Shown here: positions 37,554-41,975 of the stretch, in pieces
How the letters are laid out: every line of letters starts with the position of its first letter
How positions within the stretch are numbered: position 1 is the first letter of the stretch
The notes under the pieces: generated by a model
The model's input: only the letters and a program-made list of their open reading frames with translations
The model's database searches: none
What the model was told of the DNA's origin: nothing
Made by a program: the position numbers and the translations under genes
From: Clostridia bacterium
GTDB taxonomy: Bacteria > Bacillota > Clostridia > Christensenellales > Aristaeellaceae
Direction of reading: 5' to 3'
Assembly (NCBI GenBank): GCA_017397765.1
Contig: JAFQIB010000118.1
Span: forward strand, 1 to 42,327
DNA length: 42,327 nucleotides

Positions 37554-37589
37554 AAAACAAGCCTCCTGTTTTTGCAGGAGGCTTGTTTT
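37554..37589. terminator. Strong bidirectional terminator
   Basis: Fifteen-base-pair stem AAAACAAGCCTCCTG (37554-37568) with CAGGAGGCTTGTTTT (37575-37589), loop TTTTTG. T runs follow on both strands. It ends the sigma/ABC operon on the minus strand. Confidence 0.85.
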
Positions 37590-37631: not shown

Positions 37632-38414
37632 CTATACGATTGATATGTCTTCTTTCTTTAACGTAATACCAGTGATGCCATAGAGCAACAGGATAGGCAG
37701 CGCATACAGGACAGCTTCGGCATACTGATTGCTGCCGCTTCTGATGTCATTGAGCATCAGCGAGGCAGGACGAAGCTCTGTGTCCGGCAACAGGATCAGT
37801 GGTAGTTCCACCAGATTCCATGCCTCGGCAAAGCACAAAAGTGTCAGCACGGCAAGACCGGGCAACAGTTGAGGCATGATTGCTCGGCAGAAGATAGTCA
37901 ATTGAGATTTGCAATCCAGTAGTGCAGCTTCCCAATGCTCGCCGGGAATAGCGCGGATCAGCAGCCAAGCAATCAGCGGACCCAGAGGTGAGAACGCCTG
38001 CATCAGGATCACCGCAAGCTGCGTGTCGTACAGATTCAGCCAGCGACTCATTTTGAACACAGGTACCATGATGCTCTGGAAGGGCAACAGCAATAGCAAT
38101 AGCAACAACACACGAATGAGCCCGACGCCTTTGATACTGCTGCGAGCCAGGAACAGACCACCAAGCACCGACAACGGCAATTGCAAAATCAGCGTACTCA
38201 GTGCGATCTTGATGGAGTTCATCAGCTGAATAAGCAGTTCTTCGTTATCAAACATGATGGTATATCGCTGCCAGGAAGCTTGCAGAAAAACCGTTTCGCC
38301 TTTCAGGAAAGAAATCAGATCCCCTTGAAAGAAGGAAGCAGCGAACAGCATCAGCATCGGCAAGGCAAATGTCAGAAGCAGAACAACCAGCACACATGCG
38401 GTGATTTTCTTCAT
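37632..38414 (-). CDS. Sugar-type ABC permease (MalG-like)
   Basis: A protein of 260 residues with about six membrane helices. The EAA-like loop is EAALLDCKSQLTIFCRAIMPQLLPGLAV (about 162-189), weaker than usual: the family glycine after the EAA is replaced. It overlaps the preceding permease by four bases, with AAGGAGG ahead of its ATG. It is the last gene of the sigma-sensor-permease operon. No ATP-binding protein gene accompanies it, so a shared ATPase such as an MsmK type would be needed for transport, or the permease pair does not transport at all. Confidence 0.85.
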   Translation of the reverse strand: MKKITACVLVVLLLTFALPMLMLFAASFFQGDLISFLKGETVFLQASWQRYTIMFDNEELLIQLMNSIKIALSTLILQLPLSVLGGLFLARSSIKGVGLIRVLLLLLLLLPFQSIMVPVFKMSRWLNLYDTQLAVILMQAFSPLGPLIAWLLIRAIPGEHWEAALLDCKSQLTIFCRAIMPQLLPGLAVLTLLCFAEAWNLVELPLILLPDTELRPASLMLNDIRSGSNQYAEAVLYALPILLLYGITGITLKKEDISIV

Positions 38415-39208
38415 GCCAGCCGCCTCCTTTTCATGATCAGAAACGCTGCCCCGTACAAAATCAGCGCAAAGAGTACCAGCAAGACCGCACAGGCAGCGAC
38501 ATACTGGAAATTCATCTTCACATACTGATGGTTCATGTAATGCTGAAGCATGTATACCTTGGACGATGGATAATCACCAAAGAGAAGATAGCTTTCTTTA
38601 TAGCAGCGGAACATGAACATGGTCAGAAAGATCATCACGCCAGCCAGTTGTTCTCCGGCCATGGGTAAACGAATGGCAAAGTATGTCCTGACAGCGCCTG
38701 CCCCATCCAACGCGGCAGCGTCGGTAATAGCTTGTGGGATTTTCTGCAATGCCGTGTAAAGCAGAACAGCACCTACACCAGCATACTTCCAGAGATAGAG
38801 TGTTATCAGTGCGGCCTGAGAGGATGCTGACGCCAGCATGGACCGAGTGTCGAACACCGCTGACCACAGGCTGACTGCCGAAACCGAAGGGATCAGCAGC
38901 GGAAGAAGCAGAACGGCCATGCCCAGCCCAGTCAGCTTCGGATGCCGATACAGCAGCGGTGCTATCACCAATGAGGCCAGCAATGCCGCCAGAATCATTC
39001 CACCACCCAGCAAAGACAGGTTCTGCATTCCCATCTGGAAGTACTGATTGCTCATTACATAGCTGAAATTATCAAGTCCGGCAAAGCGATCATCGAAAGC
39101 ACTGTTTACCAAAGCGTAATAGACCGTCATTCCCAGCGGAACCAGATAGCATGCAGCGAATCCCAACAAGGGAAGTGCGCCGATCAGAAGTAATTTCTGC
39201 TTCTTCAT
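38411..39208 (-). CDS. Sugar-type ABC permease (MalF-like)
   Basis: A protein of 265 residues with about six membrane helices. YLVPLGMTVYYALVNS and the F..LDNFSYVM stretch are typical of MalF-type permeases. The EAA loop is DAAALDGAGAVRTYFAIRLPMAG (about 164-186), well conserved. It starts only 2 bases after the binding-protein gene and overlaps the next permease by 4, so all three are translated together. Confidence 0.88.
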   Translation of the reverse strand: MKKQKLLLIGALPLLGFAACYLVPLGMTVYYALVNSAFDDRFAGLDNFSYVMSNQYFQMGMQNLSLLGGGMILAALLASLVIAPLLYRHPKLTGLGMAVLLLPLLIPSVSAVSLWSAVFDTRSMLASASSQAALITLYLWKYAGVGAVLLYTALQKIPQAITDAAALDGAGAVRTYFAIRLPMAGEQLAGVMIFLTMFMFRCYKESYLLFGDYPSSKVYMLQHYMNHQYVKMNFQYVAACAVLLVLFALILYGAAFLIMKRRRLA

Positions 39209-39210
39209 GG

Positions 39211-41313
39211 TCAGCCACCTATGAGCATATCTGCCTTCTGTTGCATTGTATCAGCATATTCCTGAGGCGTAATGTCACCGTTCATCAGCATTTCCAGCAG
39301 ACCTTCAGTAATCTGCAGACGCATCAGCTCCAGGTCACGAAGCTGCGGGACACCGTGCTCCAGCACGAAATTGTAAAGGTACTCATTTTGCGCAGAAGGC
39401 GGTGTGCGCATATCATGCTGCTCGCCGTAAAGGGATTTGTCCTTCAGCCACTGACCACAGTTGAGATAAAACTGATTTGAAGTCGCTTCCACCGAAGCGT
39501 AGCATGCCAGAAAATAGGCTGCTTCTTCCGGGTATCTGGAGTTGGCATTAGCCATCAAACACCAGGAATCCACCAGGAAGAGCGGATTCTCAATATCATA
39601 GACAGGAGGTAATACATAGGTATCATTTCCCAGTTTGCCCAATGCATGTTCTTCCGCCCAAAGCAGGGTGTTATCCGGCATGTCGAAGCTGAGGTCATGG
39701 GGATCCTTTATATAGATCAAGCCTCTCACGCTCAGATCCTGGATACGTTCCAGCAAGGCCAGGTATTCCGCCGTTTGGAAGTCCGCGGTGCCCAGGTAGT
39801 AGTCGGTGTGCGTTGCTTCGTATTGCCAGCGCATATTGGTCAGCACATTCTCGCCAGCCAAATAGATCGGTTTTTCGGCGGTCTGGTTATAGGCGTATAC
39901 TTTATCAGCCAAAGCATCGAAGTCTTCCCATGTCCACACACCGGTAGGAATCTCCCACCCCACAGCTTCTGCCAGTTTGGGATTTACCTGGAACAGATCC
40001 ACGCCTGTCTCCCACAGCACACCGTATTGCCGCCCATGAGTGGACATCAATCCCCAGATATCCCGGTAATCATCCCGGAGTGCTTGCATTTCAGGCATAT
40101 CGGTCAGATCAATGATGGCACCGTTTGCCAATAAGCCAGGAGCTGGCGTCATACCATACATGCCCTGCATGGCAAACACATCCACGCCGCCTTCGTCCGC
40201 CATCATTTCAGTGGCCAGAACGCGGTTGTCAAGAATATCCCGGCGAACCACTTCCACATTCGGATACTTCTTGTTAAACATTTCGATAGCAATAGCCATC
40301 GAAGGTTCTTCAAGGTGCGGGCCATCAACGATCGTCAGCAGGTGGTCAACTTTTTTGCCGCTAAGCTGTAAGATATTATAGCAACCAGTTTGTTTTCCAT
40401 CGAAATCATAGGTATACAGATTGGTTTCGTCACGGCTCATGCTCTCCGTATTCTTGTCTATCCGCTGACCCGAATAGAACATTTCACCCGTACGGGCATT
40501 GAGGATCATCAACCGTCCTTCTTCGTTGATCACAAAAGCATACTGATCGCCGTCCTTTTCAAAGCCTGCCACGATTTCCAACAGACCTTTCACTTTTACA
40601 GGGGAACAGTACAACTGGCGTGTCCGCAAATTGATCGCAGCCAGTTCGCCTGTTTCCCTGTAAGCAAACAGCACATCACCGTGCAGCGAAAGATTGCTCA
40701 CTCGTTTGTTGGTCCAGCCCTCGATATGAAGAGCTGCGTCAAACTCTGCTTGATCAGGGTATACACTTATGCGATATATGCTGTTCCTGATCTGCTTGTT
40801 ATTCACCACAGCATATACGCTGCCTCCCGCAGCGACCATATCCGTGATGTTGAACGAAATGTCGAGATCACGACCGGGTGTCATGGGTAGCCCGTAACTG
40901 GTGGTAGACAGCAACCGCTGGCCTTCCTCCGACCAGGTAACGTAGTACAGCGTTCCGGGCATATCCACATCCGCTGCCATTGCAACGATGCTGTCGTTCT
41001 CCAGCACCACCTGAGGTCGTTTTGCACCTGAGCGCTGGAACATAAGCTTGTCTTCCTCATATGTCCACACGCCTCCATCATCCATAGCACGCATGGGACG
41101 CATCAGCGCAAAGGCGGTAACGGTAAACAACATCAACACCAGAGCAAACACGACGATGTTCTTCGCCTTCTGCGGAAGGGAAAGCCAATAACCGCCTTTG
41201 CGTTTTTCATCCTGCCGATGGTGATGCTCAGCAATGATCTTATCTGCCAGAAACTCATTTGGTTTCAGTCCGGCATGAGTGTTCTCAATTGCCTGATGAA
41301 TTCGCTTATTCAC
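39211..41313 (-). CDS. Membrane-anchored propeller and solute-binding fusion, probable anti-sigma sensor
   Basis: A protein of 700 residues. Residues 1-51 are cytoplasmic (MNKRIHQAIENTHAGLKPNEF), followed by a single membrane helix at 52-71. Residues 80-325 look like a beta-propeller (strand repeats with WTYEEDKLMF, LYYVTWSEEGQRLL, VYAVVNNKQIRNSIYRI). Residues 325-700 are a family 1 extracellular solute-binding domain (EEPSMAIAIEMFNKKYPNVEVVRR, VDVFAMQG, GVWTWEDFDALADKV). There is no signal cleavage site or lipobox. The GTG start with AAAGGAG 9 bases away overlaps the sigma gene by 8 bases. Position and layout suggest that the short cytoplasmic part holds the ECF sigma factor and the outside part senses a sugar; this is inference. 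Confidence 0.85.
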   Translation of the reverse strand: MNKRIHQAIENTHAGLKPNEFLADKIIAEHHHRQDEKRKGGYWLSLPQKAKNIVVFALVLMLFTVTAFALMRPMRAMDDGGVWTYEEDKLMFQRSGAKRPQVVLENDSIVAMAADVDMPGTLYYVTWSEEGQRLLSTTSYGLPMTPGRDLDISFNITDMVAAGGSVYAVVNNKQIRNSIYRISVYPDQAEFDAALHIEGWTNKRVSNLSLHGDVLFAYRETGELAAINLRTRQLYCSPVKVKGLLEIVAGFEKDGDQYAFVINEEGRLMILNARTGEMFYSGQRIDKNTESMSRDETNLYTYDFDGKQTGCYNILQLSGKKVDHLLTIVDGPHLEEPSMAIAIEMFNKKYPNVEVVRRDILDNRVLATEMMADEGGVDVFAMQGMYGMTPAPGLLANGAIIDLTDMPEMQALRDDYRDIWGLMSTHGRQYGVLWETGVDLFQVNPKLAEAVGWEIPTGVWTWEDFDALADKVYAYNQTAEKPIYLAGENVLTNMRWQYEATHTDYYLGTADFQTAEYLALLERIQDLSVRGLIYIKDPHDLSFDMPDNTLLWAEEHALGKLGNDTYVLPPVYDIENPLFLVDSWCLMANANSRYPEEAAYFLACYASVEATSNQFYLNCGQWLKDKSLYGEQHDMRTPPSAQNEYLYNFVLEHGVPQLRDLELMRLQITEGLLEMLMNGDITPQEYADTMQQKADMLIGG

Positions 41314-41803
41314 CCAACATTTCTCCTTTCAGCATGTCTTTGAGCTGCTTTCGGGCCCGTTTCAGTCGTTCTGAAACAGATGGCTGACGGATGCCCAGTA
41401 TGCTTGCGATTTCGTTTACATTGAAGTTCTGGTAATAGTACAGAAGAATGACCTCTCTGGATTTGTCAGGCAGGTGATGGATCGCCATACTCAGAGAAAT
41501 CTCGTCATCGTCGGGTGGTGAACTTTCATCCGGAAGAAGCTCCGGTGTGACATGCCGGTTGATCCGTTTGAACCAGCCTGAACGCAGCATATCACGGCAG
41601 ACATTGAGCGCGATGCGATACACCCATGCCTTCTCATGCCCGTCGTCACGGTAGTCGGGAAGGGCGTTGTAAACCTTCAAAAAGGTTTCCTGCACAGCAT
41701 CTTCAGCTTGCATTCGATCCTGCAATCGCACATAGCAAAACCGTAGAAGCTCCGCTTGATAAGCGCTTACCAATTCACGCAGCTTCTGTTCTTGCTGATC
41801 CAT
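41306..41803 (-). CDS. ECF-type RNA polymerase sigma factor
   Basis: A protein of 165 residues with sigma region 2 (ELLRFCYVRLQDRMQAEDAVQETFLKVY, then AWVYRIALNVCRDMLR) and region 4 (HLPDKSREVILLYYYQNFNVNEIASILGIRQPSVSERLKRARKQL). There is no region 1 or 3, as in ECF factors. The ATG at 41803 has GGAGG 8 bases before it; an in-frame GTG three codons earlier sits on the ribosome site and is rejected. It heads the operon and overlaps the sensor gene, the usual sigma/anti-sigma order. The AT-rich upstream region (41820-41870) has no clear sigma-A promoter. Confidence 0.92.
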   Translation of the reverse strand: MDQQEQKLRELVSAYQAELLRFCYVRLQDRMQAEDAVQETFLKVYNALPDYRDDGHEKAWVYRIALNVCRDMLRSGWFKRINRHVTPELLPDESSPPDDDEISLSMAIHHLPDKSREVILLYYYQNFNVNEIASILGIRQPSVSERLKRARKQLKDMLKGEMLGE

Positions 41804-41933
41804 GTCATTCACCTCCCTTCACTTATAATAACGTACTTCATGAACATAATATAGGTATCGATGCTTATTTTCTGTTAGGAATTGTAAAATGCAAAATCAC
41901 GAGTGCGGATTGTTGCTCTCAAAGAATTGAAGA

Positions 41934-41975
41934 GAAAAAAAGCTCTGCGATCTATTTGCTGCAGATCGCAGGGCT
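41934..41975 (-). terminator. Strong terminator on the minus strand
   Basis: Stem AGCTCTGCGATCT (41941-41953) with AGATCGCAGGGCT (41963-41975), one G-U pair. On the minus strand it is followed by seven T (41934-41940). It ends whatever is transcribed from the right edge. Confidence 0.85.

Follow-up and report, generated by a model that had tools for sequence, protein, structure and literature searches.

The window, a whole contig of 42,327 bases (C80) in a draft genome of 3.13 Mb, carries a four-gene unit in which the gene following an ECF sigma factor encodes a short N-terminal segment, one transmembrane (TM) helix, a beta-propeller and a complete solute-binding protein (SBP). This fusion protein is probably an anti-sigma factor anchored in the membrane that uses the importer's binding protein as its sensor, the rest of the importer being encoded downstream, and the sigma factor would be released by proteolysis. 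The reading is based on the conservation of the gene order, the recurrence of the N-terminal segment beside ECF sigma genes, and the coupled divergence of this segment and the sigma factor.

Gene organization and domains of the fusion protein

The four genes form a single unit on the minus strand in the order sigma, fusion, P1 and P2, the last two being ABC permease genes, and the unit is flanked by terminator-like hairpins (Table 1; the hairpin scan of the region found 8, compared with a mean of 4.5 and sd of 2.5 in shuffles). The sigma and fusion genes overlap by 8 bases, as the preliminary description had claimed along with this gene order, and P1 and P2 overlap by 4 bases. The sigma factor matched PF04542 and PF08281 above the cut-off and contains regions 2 and 4 only, which places it among the ECF sigma factors. 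Within the unit itself, neither a separate anti-sigma gene nor a second SBP gene was found. A Clostridia MAG from goat colon contains a protein closely related to the fusion, with identities of 88% and 94% over two pieces.

Table 1. Features of the four-gene unit and its flanks (positions in the window)
Feature	Position	Strand	Basis
16-pair hairpin 3' of the unit	37554..37589	listed on + only	inverted repeat; either strand can form it
ABC permease P2, 260 aa	37632..38414	-	Pfam scan and motif; EAA-type loop retained (DG is DC)
ABC permease P1, 265 aa	38411..39208	-	Pfam scan and motif; EAA-type loop retained
Fusion gene (anti-sigma-type segment, TM, propeller, SBP), 700 aa, GTG start	39211..41313	-	ORF, Pfam scan, structure model
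Solute-binding protein fold, residues 322-700	39214..40350	-	SBP fold recognized
Six-bladed beta-propeller, residues 74-318	40360..41094	-	structure model, domain folded alone
A-F-A, residues 67-69, possible signal-peptidase site	41107..41115	-	AxA[LF] in 11/11 orthologues with intact N-terminus
TM helix, residues 48-69	41107..41172	-	model helix 48-69, partly pLDDT <50; hydropathy 2.77
N-terminal anti-sigma-type module (putative), residues 1-47	41173..41313	-	E 3e-10 to profile of 25 sibling modules; sigma gene 5' of siblings
ECF sigma factor, 165 aa	41306..41803	-	Sigma70_r2 and r4_2 above cut-off; TIGR02937 100 bits (cut-off 42.9)
Candidate promoter, CTATATT and CGTTAT elements	41828..41854	-	upstream comparison of orthologues
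Terminator-like hairpin 5' of the unit	41945..41971	-	hairpin scan

The domains first proposed for the protein were all recovered: the short segment at the N-terminus, the single TM helix, the propeller, which is six-bladed, and the full SBP. The structure model and fold search assigned the SBP part to a complete fold of the oligosaccharide type. Because Foldseek and VIA searches with the whole model returned SBPs and nothing on the propeller, the propeller was folded alone. Two helices (residues 2-12 and 20-38) were predicted ahead of the TM helix with low confidence, mostly at pLDDT <50.

No Pfam family matched the N-terminus in a scan at E up to 10, in which filters drop most matches above 0.1. 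Likewise, a Pfam scan of 25 sibling modules gave no meaningful match, and the PDB sequence search with the N-terminal profile yielded chance-level matches only. The motif HxxxCxxC marks class I zinc anti-sigma domains; it is absent here, since residues 1-47 contain no cysteine.

The N-terminal segment is a recurring module beside ECF sigma genes

In a search of the family genomes, the first 60 residues of the fusion also matched proteins of very different length. An ECF sigma gene lies just 5' of 53 of the 55 distinct module proteins, at an offset of -40 to +66 bases (a raw count). These 55 proteins, 6 of which are fusions of the SBP kind, were retained after leaving out module matches above E 0.05, repeats, lower-ranking matches, and N-termini of the G194 type, which the profile does not recognise. 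In a second set, obtained by search with a profile of 25 siblings, the sigma gene is 5' in 29/30 loci (again a raw count); the two sets share at least two loci (G006:C48 and G000:C28). The exceptions to adjacency were L078, at a contig edge, L089, with no recognised sigma ORF in 1.6 kb, and L127, a lipoprotein-like ORF of another family that is probably a false match.

The profile of the 25 sibling modules, none of which carries an SBP, matched the N-terminus of the fusion at E 3e-10 and those of its orthologues at 1e-10 (G006), 5e-10 (G009) and 3e-7 (G004); these matches are reciprocal rather than independent, as it was the fusion that led to the siblings in the first place. What is independent is the presence of a sigma gene beside the sibling modules. 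In the source genome, all seven module loci examined, this unit included, are sigma/module pairs (8 matches at E 1e-4 or better). The six further pairs sharing this 50-residue module, of the sigma/anti-sigma type, are L117, L128, L140, L159, L160 and L161.

Pfam scans of 20 siblings, some of them partial proteins, found DUF4179, peptidoglycan-binding and weak PepSY matches among the outside domains. For DUF4179 (PF13786; cut-off 30.1), L144 scored 41.4 bits and lies above the cut-off, and L085 (27.8) and L088 (24.0) lie below it. As the module, nearly always with a sigma gene upstream, is common to proteins that differ widely in their outside domains, the N-terminus of the fusion is well supported as an anti-sigma segment with putative sigma binding. 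The fusion gene, with this segment ahead of its TM helix, forms an ECF sigma/anti-sigma type pair with its neighbour by the sibling-profile match and the adjacency seen in the siblings. The preliminary description had inferred that the cytoplasmic segment binds the sigma factor. Both adjacency counts, the profile and the coupled divergence described below support this interpretation in part, in that the segment is a recurring sigma-partner module; its binding to this particular sigma factor and the release by ligand are putative.

Two further loci were noted in genomes that carry the fusion. A second sigma/module pair (L057:1952-4913; G196), whose module protein has 811 aa and a weak PepSY match, lies divergently beside the SBP unit, and 3' of P2 in G016 (L016:5902-7334) another ECF-like sigma gene precedes one for a protein whose N-terminus resembles a C-x2-C zinc finger (by eye).

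Sigma factor and N-terminus diverge together

Mantel analysis of nine orthologues gave a rho of 0.88 (p 4e-4) between the sigma factor and the N-terminus, and 0.84 (p 6e-4) with propeller and SBP held fixed; all of these p-values are rough, because the compared parts are operon neighbours with a common history. The corresponding values were 0.23 (p 0.14) for the propeller and 0.64 (p 8e-4) for the SBP, the latter falling to 0.40 (p 0.04) once the N-terminus was removed. When close pairs were taken out (n=6), the N-terminus gave 0.87 (p 0.009), the propeller 0.13 (p 0.34) and the SBP 0.49 (p 0.09). Among 33 sibling pairs without an SBP, from a total of 47 after exclusion of sigma ORFs <120 aa and of sigmas >=85% identical, the sigma factor correlated with the N-terminus at 0.53 (p 2e-4) and with the TM helix at -0.12 (p 0.96). 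In the sequences compared, the divergence of the sigma factor tracks that of the N-terminal segment and hardly that of the propeller.

The sigma factors of G194 and G195 share only 36-40% identity with their counterparts in six other orthologues and 31-33% with the one in G224. Their N-termini are 5-25% identical to those of the other orthologues, and propeller and SBP are 28-43% identical. From these values, the sigma factor and its partner segment look as if they had been exchanged together on the same propeller-SBP-permease body. A very different sigma factor and N-terminus on the same body, as if a cassette had been swapped, were also noted at L055, L057 and L058 (G194/G195/G196).

Distribution in the family and module-less relatives

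A search with the N-terminus and propeller found the fusion in 12 of the 308 family genomes, the source included, in four genera (G000, G004, G006, G009, G016, G151, G194, G195, G196, G198, G216 and G224). The sigma gene is directly 5' of the fusion in all 11 genomes in which this could be judged, the contig of G016 ending inside the fusion, and both permeases are 3' in 12/12, P2 of G195 being truncated where its contig stops. In G006 the fusion gene is split across two contigs, one with the sigma gene and the other with the permeases; G196 has two partial copies, C157 with the sigma gene upstream and C225 with the permeases downstream. The neighbourhood survey for sigma/SBP fusions that had been suggested found the order conserved across 12 genomes, all from a single family. 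The original claim that an ABC binding protein stands where a sensor would be describes a real and conserved arrangement. Outside the family, no fused form was recognised in sparse samples of the order (396 genomes), class (391) and phylum (398), surveyed at strict cut-offs (1e-15, 1e-10, 1e-4) and in part with two candidates scored per genome.

Relatives without the module were found at five loci. L060 (G275) and L101 (G169) have plain signal-peptide-like starts and L102-L104 lipoprotein-like ones (by eye), and in all five P1- and P2-like permeases come next. No tandem sigma gene is present 5' of these genes in the stretch covered, which is 0.5 kb only for L102; for L101, an ECF-like ORF lies divergently on the opposite strand. 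The propeller profile matched, among the module-less relatives, only L060, and in addition L061, whose start lies beyond the contig edge. Of seven neighbourhoods taken from the wider surveys, four (L105-L108) showed no clear SBP-plus-permease unit, the SBP frames of L105 and L106 being short.

According to the preliminary description, homologues occurring without any sigma gene would refute its proposal. Homologues with no tandem sigma gene do exist, in the form of these five relatives, yet they lack the N-terminal module too, and the joint absence of module and tandem sigma gene favours the anti-sigma idea. Since the module-less relatives combine signal-peptide or lipoprotein-like starts with permeases and no tandem sigma gene, the signal peptide of an importer's binding protein seems to have been replaced by the sigma-partner module.

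Two observations by eye concern the same loci. The sigma-less propeller-SBP importer of G275 (L060:2154-4788) is preceded by a LytTR-like regulator, a membrane kinase-like protein and an AgrB-like protein, and the SBPs at L060:5922 and L101:3636 have no evident lipobox.

Membrane topology and a putative cleavage site

By the positive-inside rule, the positively charged side of a TM helix lies inside. The 12 residues before the TM helix of the module proteins contain 225 K+R, compared with 62 in the 12 residues after it, and this excess favours an N-inside orientation. An AxA followed by L or F is found near the end of the TM helix in all orthologues with an intact N-terminus. In the ectodomain, AxA occurs in 11.9% of 16-aa windows; because this comparison is not matched in composition, shuffles and permeases served as further controls. 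AxA occurs at the TM end in 53/55 module proteins, compared with a mean of 24 and a maximum of 32 in 1000 composition-kept shuffles, and with 20 of 148 permease TM ends.

Signal peptidase cuts RsiV between residues 66 and 67, only when ligand is bound, and RasP acts next (PMC6066255); the putative AFA site of the fusion stands at residues 67-69. RsiP is cut by SipP at a non-canonical site (PMC8844934). The AxA at the TM end suggests an RsiV-like cleavage by signal peptidase. A site-2 protease (TIGR00054 family) and signal peptidases (S26) are among the proteins of the source genome. Given the AxA enrichment, the precedent of RsiV and these proteases, ligand-triggered cleavage is taken as the leading mechanism, as a candidate only.

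Transport function and candidate promoter

The EAA loop is a motif of ABC permeases. With two permeases carrying such loops and an SBP fold, the unit has the permeases and binding protein of an importer with a family 1 type SBP. The unit contains no ATPase gene; elsewhere in the genome, five of six OB_MalK matches are above the cut-off (MalK-type). The kept EAA loops and the five MalK-type ATPases indicate that transport is likely retained by the fusion importer. Because the genes beside the unit look different between orthologues (by eye), no substrate is named.

A CGT is typical of ECF -10 elements. A post hoc comparison of the orthologues' upstream regions shows an element with CGT a short distance ahead of GGAGG in 10/11 cases, the eleventh region (that of G195) being truncated at the contig edge; the GGAGG in use falls just within the open frame in G198, G216 and G224. 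The element fits, and does not prove, autoregulation of the unit from this candidate promoter. The promoter motif search proposed earlier found no wider regulon: the pattern CTATATT-N12-16-CGTTAT had a single match in the genome, at the unit's own promoter. As the reversed control also matched once, no regulon is claimed.

Comparison with known systems

The preliminary description had likened the unit to the RsgI sensors of cellulosomal clostridia. The likeness holds for the layout, as SigI/RsgI of cellulolytic clostridia also combines a cytoplasmic inhibitor, a TM helix and an outside carbohydrate-sensing domain, with the sigma and anti-sigma genes in one operon (PMC10575876), but membership was rejected. 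RsgI_N was matched neither by the whole protein at E up to 1 nor by the N-terminus at E up to 10, and the Pfam scan of the fusion found no CBM, SBP and propeller being there instead. SigI is described as having no homology to sigma-4 (PMC10575876), whereas the ECF sigma factor here has region 4 together with region 2.

RsiV/sigma-V and the DUF4179 anti-sigma factors share with the unit an ECF sigma factor, a short N-terminus, one TM helix and a sensor outside (PMC6066255), and sibling L144 provides a link to the DUF4179 proteins. They differ in that RsiV senses as a lysozyme receptor (PMC6066255), whereas the fusion has a propeller and an SBP, with permeases in the unit. Membership of DUF4179 was rejected for the fusion itself, from which PF13786 is absent although siblings match it. 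By this comparison, RsiV and the DUF4179 anti-sigma factors are a closer parallel than RsgI.

In FecA-FecR-FecI, a part of the transporter reports its substrate to an ECF sigma factor, the outer-membrane FecA touching a separate anti-sigma factor. Transport-coupled signalling would be common to both systems; in the fusion, the binding protein itself would be the anti-sigma factor. CnrY belongs to a metal response. This class II anti-sigma factor also has a very short segment, whose two helices wrap the sigma factor (PMC7406223); two helices are predicted in the fusion as well, but with low confidence. ECF52 SCO4117 of Streptomyces coelicolor likewise ties an outside carbohydrate-binding domain to an ECF sigma factor, but carries it on the sigma factor itself, with neither anti-sigma factor nor SBP (PMC8999054). 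The module-less importers share a related SBP and the P1- and P2-like permeases with the unit and differ in the type of start and the lack of a tandem sigma gene. In the titles and opening abstracts of the papers listed by the literature searches, no anti-sigma factor fused to an SBP is described. The type of switch is known; what appears new is the SBP as sensor and its location within an importer operon.

Proposed mechanism and alternative explanations

We propose that residues 1-47 would keep the adjacent ECF sigma factor bound on the cytoplasmic face of the membrane. On the outer side, an oligosaccharide-like solute would be taken up between the lobes of the SBP, which the propeller separates from the membrane. 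Binding of the ligand, or docking of the loaded SBP on P1/P2, may alter the membrane-proximal region and expose the AxA site at the TM end to signal peptidase, after which the site-2 protease would free the sigma factor. The freed sigma factor would transcribe its own four-gene unit, perhaps little else. It counts against this mechanism that transport would suffer if activation shed the SBP. The low-confidence model of the N-terminus, its lack of a Pfam match, the absence of DUF4179 from the fusion, the correlation of the sigma factor with the SBP and the single genomic match of the promoter pattern also weigh against it.

Alternatively, the protein could be only a sensor, an anti-sigma factor with a borrowed SBP ectodomain that no longer feeds the permeases, P1 and P2 using another SBP or being regulated cargo. 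The SBP is held by a TM helix with a propeller where a lipid anchor would be usual, which would suit such a role, as would the other SBP-like proteins in related genomes. We nevertheless consider it unlikely, for both permeases are directly 3' of the fusion wherever it occurs, with their EAA loops kept, the unit has no SBP gene besides the fusion, and related SBPs with ordinary starts precede the same kind of permease pair. A response of opposite sign, in which the ligand-bound SBP would lock the anti-sigma factor and the empty SBP would trigger release in scarcity, giving a starvation-induced scavenging importer, is judged to be just as unlikely; the sequence does not fix the sign and an importer induced by scarcity would be plausible, but RsiV, the best-studied mechanistic parallel, is ligand-activated (PMC6066255).

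The remaining alternatives are less probable still. The propeller, which is conserved and sits between the membrane and the SBP, could be the part that senses, for example, a cell-wall fragment, while the SBP merely transports; this is improbable, as L060, which lacks the sigma module, has a similar propeller, so that this domain may predate the switch. The N-terminus could also be no anti-sigma segment at all but the long n-region of a signal peptide or a plain anchor, with the sigma factor controlled otherwise. An AxA after a hydrophobic stretch does resemble the end of a signal peptide, and the model has no confident fold for residues 1-47. This explanation is very improbable in view of the adjacency of module and sigma gene in both sets, their joint divergence, and the absence of a tandem sigma gene from relatives with plain signal peptides. 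A ligand-activated, membrane-anchored anti-sigma factor built on a functional importer component is the reading that we prefer.

Transport and gene control are usually linked through separate proteins, but in this unit the anti-sigma factor appears to be part of the binding protein. In a stronger version, which we offer tentatively as quite possible and somewhat short of probable, one polypeptide would be both the working SBP and the anti-sigma factor of the importer's own sigma factor, the loaded or transport-engaged SBP would be the inducer, and clades would exchange the sigma factor and its 50-residue partner as a cassette while the transporter stays as it is (the clade of the fusion versus G194/G195). 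The unit would offer a ligand-specific switch of two genes whose sensor comes from one of the best-understood classes of ligand-binding proteins, and how an anti-sigma factor reads an outside ligand could then be tested on a domain with known open and closed states. A modular design rule is also suggested, in which sensors may be swapped on a fixed 50-residue partner, or partner and sigma factor on a fixed sensor.
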